Assembly: GCF_002243045.1 (NCBI RefSeq)
Contig: NZ_MBKP01000004.1
Location: 62,001-126,000 of the forward strand
Source: Methanolobus psychrotolerans
GTDB lineage: Archaea; Halobacteriota; Methanosarcinia; Methanosarcinales; Methanosarcinaceae
Reading direction: 5' to 3'
DNA: 64,000 nucleotides
Position 1 is the stretch's first letter, and each line of letters starts with the position of its first letter. The notes beneath the pieces are model-generated. The model did no database searches. It was given only the letters and a program-made list of their open reading frames with translations, and had not been told where the DNA came from. Positions 4,267 through 31,053 of this stretch are shown here, in pieces. The translations under genes were made by a program, and so were the position numbers.

Positions 4267-5367
4267 TTATATAATCACTGATAGTATATCATCAGGTCGC
4301 CCTCTCCTAACAATTCCACTGATCGGGTCTTTTATACCTGTGAGATTATTTGAATTTCCATTAATGATCATTATTTTTGCTATATTTCCTTCCAGAATAG
4401 AACCTGTTGTCTCAAGTCCTAATATTGCTGCTCCCATAAGCGTACACATCATAAATACTTGTCTGTCGTCTATTCCGAAAATTTTAGACAATAACTCCAT
4501 TTCAGCAAACATATTGACTGAATTCAACATTACATTGTCTGTTCCAACTGCAACTTTGATCCCGTTATCAAGCATTTCAATAATAGGAGCCATCCCCACT
4601 CCGGTTATGAAATTCGATCGGGGACAAACCACCACCGGTATATCCATATCAGCAACTCCCCTGAGATCCTGGTTTGTTGCCTTTGTCATATGTATAAGAA
4701 TATCAGGGTCAAAGGTTAATGCCTTTTCGATATCATCACGGCTGCTTTCTCCAGCATGTATTGCAAAGGTCTTATTTCTTTTTAAAGAATGTTGCCTTGC
4801 TGTTTCCAGGATAGTAATATCCATGTCATTTGCGCCACTCATGCCAAGTCCGTCTGAATTGATAAGCAATTCTTCCAGTTCTTCTGAGATGTCTCTTTTC
4901 TCTTTGCAGTTCCCTGGTCTTCCAAAGATCTTAGCATTAATGTCTGAAGATTCCAGTGCTTCTTTTAATGCAATAACTCCCTTGATCCCTCCTTCTCTGA
5001 AATCTGCAAATGCATATGTGCCGGTGTTATTCATATCCATCAGGGAGTTCTTCATTGCTTGCACCATTTTTTTATGTGATGTCCTAGCCAGTATCCTGTG
5101 TTTTAGTCCATGTGGAGGTTGTACCAATTGACTCAGATCCCTCTCCACATAATGTCCTCTCACCTTTCCAAGGACCGGATCCTTATAGATAGAATCGCCG
5201 ATATGGGTATGTGCGTTAACAAAGCAGGGTGCAATGATATGTCCAGAATCATTCCGTTTTTCTTCCACTTCCTTTATTATTCCATCTTCGACTAAGATAT
5301 AACCTTCAATGACCTCTGCTTCAGGTCCGTATATTATTTTTCCGTAGATGGTCTGTTGACAGGGCAT
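4267..5367 (-). CDS. amidohydrolase (ATZ/TRZ, cytosine-deaminase-like superfamily)
   Basis: A 366-residue metal-dependent hydrolase. The metal-binding HxH is at H53/H55 (NAHTHIGD), a second metal histidine is in IHAGES near residue 200, and the catalytic aspartate is in GTDN near residue 275. This layout matches deaminases acting on purine- or S-adenosyl-type substrates; archaeal relatives are often annotated as cytosine or S-adenosylhomocysteine deaminases, but the substrate is not readable here. The N- and C-terminal beta-sandwich segments are present (GKIIYG, LEGNIAKIMIING), so the protein seems complete. It heads a same-strand run with the Usp and CBS genes. Confidence 0.8.
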   Translation of the reverse strand: MPCQQTIYGKIIYGPEAEVIEGYILVEDGIIKEVEEKRNDSGHIIAPCFVNAHTHIGDSIYKDPVLGKVRGHYVERDLSQLVQPPHGLKHRILARTSHKKMVQAMKNSLMDMNNTGTYAFADFREGGIKGVIALKEALESSDINAKIFGRPGNCKEKRDISEELEELLINSDGLGMSGANDMDITILETARQHSLKRNKTFAIHAGESSRDDIEKALTFDPDILIHMTKATNQDLRGVADMDIPVVVCPRSNFITGVGMAPIIEMLDNGIKVAVGTDNVMLNSVNMFAEMELLSKIFGIDDRQVFMMCTLMGAAILGLETTGSILEGNIAKIMIINGNSNNLTGIKDPISGIVRRGRPDDILSVII

Positions 5368-5434
5368 GGACTATAATTTATGGTTTTTATTGTTTATAAG
5401 CGCATCAGGACTGCGTGGATATCGAAGACGCTAC

Positions 5435-5443
5435 CTTTATATG
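5435..5443 (+). promoter_or_regulatory. TATA box ahead of folded RNA candidate
   Basis: CTTTATATG matches an archaeal TATA element. A start of transcription about 25 bases downstream would fall at 5464-5468, immediately before the first helices of the folded segment. Inference from sequence only. Confidence 0.4.
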
Positions 5444-5463
5444 TCTCATCTGTAGTATTGTAT

Positions 5464-5662
5464 GTGCGTATTGTTAGGTCCTTGCATGAGAGTATGGCAG
5501 AGCCTATCTGTGATTGTACAGACAACCTCAATGCGATACACCGGATAGTGCGATAAAGCCTGTCACGAGGGAAACTGGGAAGGACAGCGGAAATTCCATA
5601 GGATGATCTCCCGGAGTTAGTGCGTCAGACGACAGCATTATCCTATCCATTATTCTCTATTT
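5464..5662 (+). ncRNA. candidate structured non-coding RNA
   Basis: This stretch has no open frame of note but is dense in complementary arms. Seen directly: GCATGAG (5484-5490) pairs with CTCAATGC (5527-5534), enclosing TCTGT/ACAGA; CAC/GTG near 5540-5551; CTGTC (5560-5564) with GACAG (5583-5587); a ten-pair helix of 5598-5607 with 5637-5646 that encloses TGCGTC-AGAC-GACAGCA; then a T-rich run at 5648-5663. A TATA box lies 21 bases upstream. It does not carry the conserved cores of RNase P, SRP or 5S RNA. It could equally be the long leader of the DUF167 gene starting at 5705. Confidence 0.42.
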
Positions 5663-5704
5663 TGAGTTGCATGTTATTGTATTGGAATGTCAGCGGTGCT
5701 GTGA

Positions 5705-6031
5705 ATGTCTTTTGAGGATGCATTAAAAAATGTGGATGGCGGAGTTATCATTGATATAGAGGTTACTCCGGGTTCAAAGAGTCTTTGTGTCCCAAGTGGT
5801 TACAATCTATGGAGGAAGCGCATTGAAGTGCGTTTGTCCCAGAATGCCCAAAAAGGAAAGGCCAATGAACAACTTATTGGCAGTATCGCAGACCTTTTCG
5901 GACTGAGACCTTCTGATATCTCCATTGTAAATGGTATGCATAATTCAAAAAAATCCCTTCTTTTAGGGAATGCTGAGTATTCTGTCATCATTAGCATCCT
6001 AAATGATAAGTTGCCCGCTCATTGTGATTAG
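5705..6031 (+). CDS. DUF167 (YggU family) protein
   Basis: A 108-residue small protein. The family pattern is clear: DIEVTPGSKS at the N-terminus, the RLSQNAQKGKANEQLI segment (compare the usual P-x-x-GKAN), and S-x-x-KSLL near the end. The family is widespread in archaea and bacteria and has no agreed function. It ends in TAG at 6029-6031; the length is normal for the family, so this TAG acts as a stop. Its 5' side is the folded segment at 5464-5662, which may be its leader. Confidence 0.85.
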   Translation: MSFEDALKNVDGGVIIDIEVTPGSKSLCVPSGYNLWRKRIEVRLSQNAQKGKANEQLIGSIADLFGLRPSDISIVNGMHNSKKSLLLGNAEYSVIISILNDKLPAHCD

Positions 6032-30975: not shown

Positions 30976-31053
30976 TGGTGGGATAGCGCGGATTTGAACC
31001 GCGGTCCAAGCGTCCCAAACGCTCGAGGATGGACCAAGCTACCCTACTATCCC
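30976..31053 (-). tRNA. tRNA-Pro (anticodon TGG)
   Basis: On the minus strand the acceptor arms GGGATAG and CTATCCC pair, the anticodon stem GAGCG/CGCTT closes the loop TTTGGGA (anticodon TGG), and the T-arm GCGG-TTCAAAT-CCGC is canonical. The discriminator A and an encoded CCA follow at 30976-30979. The D-arm has a weak G-T pair. A TTTTTATGC element lies upstream near 31095-31103. Confidence 0.95.

Follow-up and report, generated by a model that had tools for sequence, protein, structure and literature searches.

A reduced two-hairpin homologue of the HgcG guide RNA, predicted in Methanolobus psychrotolerans and its relatives

The locus and its conserved block

The window analyzed here, a 64,000-nucleotide stretch of the Methanolobus psychrotolerans genome (NZ_MBKP01000004.1, positions 62,001 to 126,000 of the forward strand), carries a conserved block at positions 5464–5643 of its plus strand, upstream of a DUF167 gene. 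When 49 non-redundant homologues were aligned, the mean column identity was found to be 0.79–0.88 inside the block and 0.42–0.45 in the flanks. This alignment was derived from 67 fetched loci, 66 of which gave a blastn match (L045 gave none), after two loci cut by contig ends (L039 and L067) had been dropped and 15 duplicates collapsed. The preliminary description of the locus, made from the sequence alone, had set the 3′ end at 5662, about 20 bases too far, since conservation stops at 5643. Ahead of the block, a TATA element (5436–5442) with a BRE-like CGCTA was found, the two forming a putative promoter element (CGCTA..TTTATAT, 5429–5442, plus strand) about 28 nt before the RNA start. A TATA-like hexamer is present 27–31 nt ahead of the RNA start in 38 of the 49 homologues, and the 20 bases that hold the TATA element reach an identity of 0.64, a local peak in a poorly conserved upstream flank; in the window, the promoter element is the sole conserved part of the 60 bases that precede the first hairpin. 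The upstream TATA box of the preliminary description is borne out by these results, and its T-rich end was also recognized in the 3′ flank, though no terminator was found there by a scan of bacterial type that, like the sigma-70 scan, is unsuited to archaea.

Three open reading frames of 40–58 aa cross 5464–5662, and could suggest that what is conserved is DNA as such, or a short coding sequence on one strand or the other, with no RNA involved. None of the three gave a match in a Pfam search, the homologue alignment contains single-base insertions and deletions, and the compensatory changes described below contradict this explanation, which is extremely improbable; a protein-coding gene at 5464–5662 was rejected because the crossing frames lack Pfam matches, in line with the earlier reading of a stretch without a gene. 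The search for tRNAs found none at 5464–5662, and Rfam gave no match at 5300–5800 up to E = 10; these absent matches ruled out a tRNA or any Rfam family, and RNase P RNA was discarded as an identity because it is located elsewhere in the genome. At another place in the window (30976–31053), a tRNA-Pro was called by ARAGORN that is absent from the matches of the Rfam tRNA model at its cut-off. Literature searches listed no paper on the RNA of the conserved block in Methanosarcina or Methanolobus.

The neighboring gene suggests a further explanation, in which the block would be a cis-acting leader, or riboswitch-like element, of DUF167. In 39 of the 49 loci a DUF167 gene lies downstream in the same orientation, but a search of the surroundings found none for the other 10 (L028, L065 and eight f2/f5 loci), and other genes were the neighbors in the three of these that were scanned (L051, L052 and L028), which argues for a trans-acting gene. 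Additionally, conservation stops about 60 nt short of the DUF167 start, and the structure is explained by the H/ACA anatomy and the homology to HgcG presented below. A leader of DUF167 was consequently rejected on the 10 loci without that gene and the other neighbors in the three scanned, and is considered extremely unlikely.

Covarying structure and hairpin anatomy

The folding of the single sequence was unexceptional (z = −1.31, with 19 of 200 shuffles equally good); therefore, the case for a structured RNA rests on comparison. In the alignment of 49 sequences, 91.5% of 2040 cells were paired in a structure of two hairpins, whereas a control in which the partners were slid by 1–3 columns gave 32–45%. 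Changes on both sides of a pair were found in 23 of 43 pairs, against 12.2 in shuffles, and are the stronger evidence because a structure read off an alignment favors itself on the number of cells paired. A second, phylum-wide alignment, fitted to the model, was composed of 46 matches (the window, six earlier loci and 39 of 40 loci picked from covariance-model matches), 39 of which lie outside the first alignment; there, both-side changes were found in 39 of 40 pairs and 88.4% of 1569 cells were paired. The ten-pair helix 5598–5607/5637–5646, which the preliminary description had put forward as its main helix, can form in the window, yet across the 49 homologues no more than 65.7% of its 490 cells are paired, and its outer pair forms in 14. 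In comparison with the 91.5% of the covarying structure, it was rejected as a conserved structure. Substitutions that break helices, named in the same description as evidence that would tell against it, were thus found for this helix and not for the RNA as a whole. The proposal of a structured RNA gene was upheld by the conserved block, the covariation and the promoter element, while the helix that it singled out was not, and the class of the RNA, box H/ACA, had gone unrecognized. This comparison of sequences strongly supports a structured non-coding RNA that has a promoter element of its own.

The predicted gene (5464–5643, plus strand), delimited by the conservation boundaries and the covariation, scored 201.6 bits with model R1, the window being a member of that model's own alignment. 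Each of its hairpins presents, in order, a lower stem, an internal loop, an upper stem, opposed UGA/GA K-turn motifs, a small terminal stem and an ACA box, and these features are listed for archaeal H/ACA RNAs in the accounts given in PMC2584109 and PMC4652768. Hairpin 1 (5467–5535) is composed of a lower stem (5467–5473/5529–5535), a guide pocket (5474–5480 and 5522–5528), an upper stem (5481–5486/5515–5521) and a terminal stem (5496–5498/5502–5504), with 97.7, 86.0 and 85.7% of cells paired in helices 1, 2 and 3, respectively, each with both-side changes. Its K-turn (5487–5513), in which UGAG (5487–5490) stands opposite GUGA (5510–5513), brackets the terminal stem, with GA present in 48 and UGA in 49 of the 49 homologues. 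The ACA box (5538–5540) follows 2 nt past the lower stem and was found in 45 of 49 sequences of the first alignment and 39 of 46 of the phylum-wide one. Hairpin 2 (5558–5630; helices 5–8, with 82.3–99.3% of cells paired) has a lower stem (5558–5562/5626–5630, with one C-A mismatch in the window) that is extended by 5564–5566/5620–5622, a guide pocket (5567–5574 and 5615–5619), an upper stem (5575–5582/5607–5614) and a terminal stem (5589–5591/5595–5597). Both halves of its K-turn (5583–5606), GA (5583–5584) opposite UGA (5604–5606), are present in 49 of 49 homologues. The second ACA box (5632–5634), 1 nt past the lower stem, was found in 49 of 49 and in 37 of 46 sequences, respectively, the remaining nine phylum-wide rows having ATA or AAA. 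The guide strands are nearly invariant across homologues, and the GUUAG strand of hairpin 2 is invariant in 49 of 49.

Canonical guides end a few bases past the ACA box. Here, a non-canonical helix, P4, encloses hairpin 2 along with its ACA box, its 5′ strand (5544–5551) pairing with a 3′ strand (5635–5642) just past the box. In the first alignment, 91.4% of its cells were paired and covariation was observed, with both-side changes in four of eight pairs; the two or three innermost pairs are found across that whole alignment, and the outer pairs are absent from many rows from outside the Methanosarcinaceae. In the phylum-wide alignment the region is gapped in 27–35 of the 46 rows.

The dimensions of the hairpins were also counted on the window. 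Going up from the closing pair as far as the second G-A pair, the upper stem of hairpin 2 is 10 layers long, a mismatch among them, and that of hairpin 1 has nine layers plus a bulge; the length of productive guides is given as 10 in PMC4652768. The spacing from the closing pair to ACA, by hand count, is 16 nt for hairpin 1 and 17 nt for hairpin 2 (15 nt for hairpin 2 of L052), and the range described in the same paper is 14–16 nt, with productive folds at 14–15.

Two covarying hairpins that both combine a pocket with a K-turn and an ACA box point to an archaeal box H/ACA guide RNA. The genes for Cbf5 (469.8 bits) and Nop10 (68.1 bits) were found in the genome. In each hairpin, the K-turn would be expected to bind L7Ae, and the pocket with the ACA box to bind Cbf5-Nop10-Gar1; the two guide strands of the pocket would base-pair with the rRNA flanking an unpaired U-N, whose U would then be isomerized to pseudouridine. 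We infer that the RNA is transcribed, that it assembles into an RNP and that rRNA is modified through it.

Distribution and relationship to HgcG

A blastn search with 5380–5704 gave a match in 51 of 60 related genomes at E ≤ 1e-3; the tally of 60 of 60 holds at E ≤ 10, with chance matches included. Of the 392 genomes of the phylum that were searched with the covariance model built from the alignment of 49 sequences, 233 gave matches at E ≤ 0.1. According to a hand count, one match was present in 217 genomes, two in 16 and none in 159, the search filters being liable to lose weak matches. Among the genomes with two matches, G060 (f7; contigs C24 and C9, loci L153 and L154) carries two full-length copies that are both strong matches (119.4 and 115.7 bits). 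In the other 15, where the best E-values range from 2.5e-7 to 3e-4, the two matches could be the two hairpins matched apart.

The Rfam model of HgcG (RF00064) gave no match in the window or its genome. The same model was applied to 16 relatives with matches to the new model, and seven of them were matched at E ≤ 0.01. Two passed the HgcG cut-off of 77 bits, namely L164 (98.4 bits) and L166 (82.1 bits), with L179, L167, L149, L147 and L052 below it; at E ≤ 1, no match was found in the other nine of the 16, including L050 and L061. Both L164 and L166 were first found with the new covariance model, and constitute the chain of homology to HgcG. Since neither the window nor its genome reaches the HgcG cut-off score, the RNA is called a homologue here and is not filed as an Rfam HgcG member. 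On this chain of matches, the window RNA is homologous, in a reduced form, to two hairpins of HgcG/Pab40/Pf7, to Afu4 and to the Haloferax RNAs Hvo1/Hvo2; RNAs of this kind have been described in other archaea, but the present copy escapes the standard RNA database.

The matches to HgcG extend 84–133 bases further upstream than those of the new model, which leaves room for a first hairpin, and that upstream stretch was found to contain, in all five f3 loci, a conserved hairpin that has a K-loop and ends in ACA. In L061 this third hairpin, with a UGA..UGA K-loop and ACA, lies at 1985–2043, directly upstream of the two hairpins, with equivalents in L062, L063, L064 and L066. Its pocket fitted best at 23S U2519 of G036 (about E. 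coli 2496), where it scored 24.5 and the runner-up in the same 23S 18.0; on the 23S of the f3 contig itself the best score was 19.0, the part equivalent to U2519 seemingly lying outside that contig. In the Methanosarcinaceae and the f2 loci, a TATA-like element is mostly found directly before hairpin 1, and hairpin I, therefore, appears to have been lost in these two sets of loci.

Taken with the anatomy, this relationship makes it very probable that the conserved block encodes an independently transcribed two-hairpin box H/ACA sRNA, homologous to the HgcG, Afu4 and Hvo1-Hvo2 hairpins, that would guide the formation of rRNA pseudouridines. A gene at which Rfam is silent in this window would thereby gain a name, a structure and candidate rRNA targets, with relatives in the 51 genomes mentioned above. 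An H/ACA-like fold could also belong to a regulatory sRNA acting on mRNAs with no role in rRNA modification, and targets outside the ribosome are raised for H/ACA and H/ACA-like RNAs in PMC4652768. Nevertheless, the guide strands of this RNA, in addition to being so little varied, are complementary to conserved rRNA positions, and the homologues are reported as rRNA pseudouridylation guides in PMC2584109 and PMC4652768, so that a regulator of mRNAs is judged very unlikely.

Candidate rRNA targets and comparison with known guides

Targets in 23S rRNA were sought among the U positions invariant in nine genomes with a full-length plus-strand 23S, each paired with its own RNA, and column-permuted pockets were used as the null. 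No 23S was found in the assembly of the window, and the RNA of the window was paired with the rRNA of G001, from the same genus. The E. coli numbers of the 23S sites were set by conserved motifs, with what we take to be the E. coli sequence. Two-part complementarity around an unpaired U-N was found for hairpin 1, whose two top sites were U2586 and U2555, in an order that varied with the genome set and the scoring. Its best score was reached by none of 200 permuted pockets with the nine genomes, by 1/200 with the eight that remain without G231, and by 0/200 when one mismatch per arm was allowed, while in G231 alone it was reached by 53/200. By this complementarity, hairpin 1 would most likely guide U2586, in the peptidyl transferase center, and/or U2555, in the A-loop. 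It can be asked specifically if a single pocket serves as the guide for two positions at the active center of the ribosome.

For hairpin 2, with one mismatch per arm, the top 23S site was U1915, with a score of 22.9 compared with 14.9 for the next one, and 2 of 200 permutations reached it. With no mismatch, the best score was reached by 30/200 (nine genomes), 80/200 (eight genomes) and 13/200 (G231 alone). In the genus of the window, the 5′ guide of hairpin 2 is GAGGGAAA, with mismatches adjoining U1915, and the complementarity at U1915 is weak. A 16S site was also compared with U1915 for hairpin 2 in nine genomes, with G109 lacking a matched 16S motif, and hence a 16S score, and with G038 contributing 16S only. 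This site (U1265, in the numbering of G036) was the top one in a 16S scan of two genomes (25.0 compared with 17.25 for the next). It suggests that the RNA may be of the same kind as its homologues, with hairpin 2 having moved in Methanolobus from helix 69 to 16S U1265. On the rRNA of G001, the RNA of the window scored 21 at the 16S site and 11 at U1915, and the 16S site was likewise the better one in G036 (31.5 versus 25) and G067 (27 versus 25), and marginally so in G106, where both were poor (10 versus 7.5). In G042, G039 and G103, however, hairpin 2 pairs better with U1915, which agrees with the target reported for the homologues, and the invariant GUUAG strand can be explained by both sites. 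A shift to 16S is, consequently, possible but on balance doubtful, and the family target of hairpin 2 would, by homology, probably be U1915 and perhaps U1917, in helix 69; in Methanolobus itself, either helix 69 or the 16S site may be the target.

A more far-reaching arrangement, put forward tentatively and rather improbable, would have the one pocket of hairpin 1 work in two registers (U2555 and U2586) and hairpin 2 serve helix 69 along with, in Methanolobus and part of its relatives, the 16S site. If true, one RNA of 180 nt, derived by reduction from an ancestor with three hairpins and held by P4 as a clamp around its second ACA box, would set several pseudouridines in the functional core of the small and the large ribosomal subunit.

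The RNA of the window resembles HgcG/Pab40/Pf7 of the Thermococcales (RF00064) in its tandem H/ACA hairpins in the same order, its K-turns and its ACA boxes, and Pab40.3 is described with the target L2016, equivalent to 1915 (PMC4652768, PMC2584109). HgcG has three hairpins, whereas the window has two, hairpin I being apparently absent and the promoter element lying directly before hairpin 1. The two also differ in that Pa40.2 is paired with another site, L1932, in PMC4652768, where Pa35.1 is listed with L2672; the latter would correspond to 2555 provided that U2669 is 2552, an equivalence given in PMC2584109. In P. abyssi, the equivalent of 2586 was not found to be modified, according to PMC2584109, and Pab40 and Afu4 are described there as producing in vitro the 1915 equivalent and not that of 1917. 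Afu4 of Archaeoglobus fulgidus (Af4.1–4.3), which is likened here by its published description and not by Archaeoglobus sequence, also has three hairpins in place of two. PMC4652768 presents Af4.2b as the guide for L2601 and Af4.3 as able to guide L1970, which corresponds to U1915. The 631 nt that separate L1970 from L2601 match the distance between U1915 and U2555 (14 23S sequences were examined and both sites located in 12, with 630–634 nt in 11 of these), so that L2601 is, by spacing, U2555. Two hairpins are also present in Haloferax volcanii (Hvo1 and Hvo2), where PMC2584109 gives hairpin 1 for Ψ2621 (E. coli 2586) and hairpin 2 for Ψ1956/1958 (E. coli 1915/1917), both hairpins being treated in PMC4652768 as well; unlike those of the window, the Haloferax hairpins are separated by a long spacer (PMC2584109). 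In G231, taken for a haloarchaeon, the guide of hairpin 1 is without complementarity to U2555. Through the homologue described here, the thermococcal HgcG, Afu4 of Archaeoglobus and the haloarchaeal Hvo1/Hvo2 are linked with a methanogen lineage that appears to be one hairpin short.
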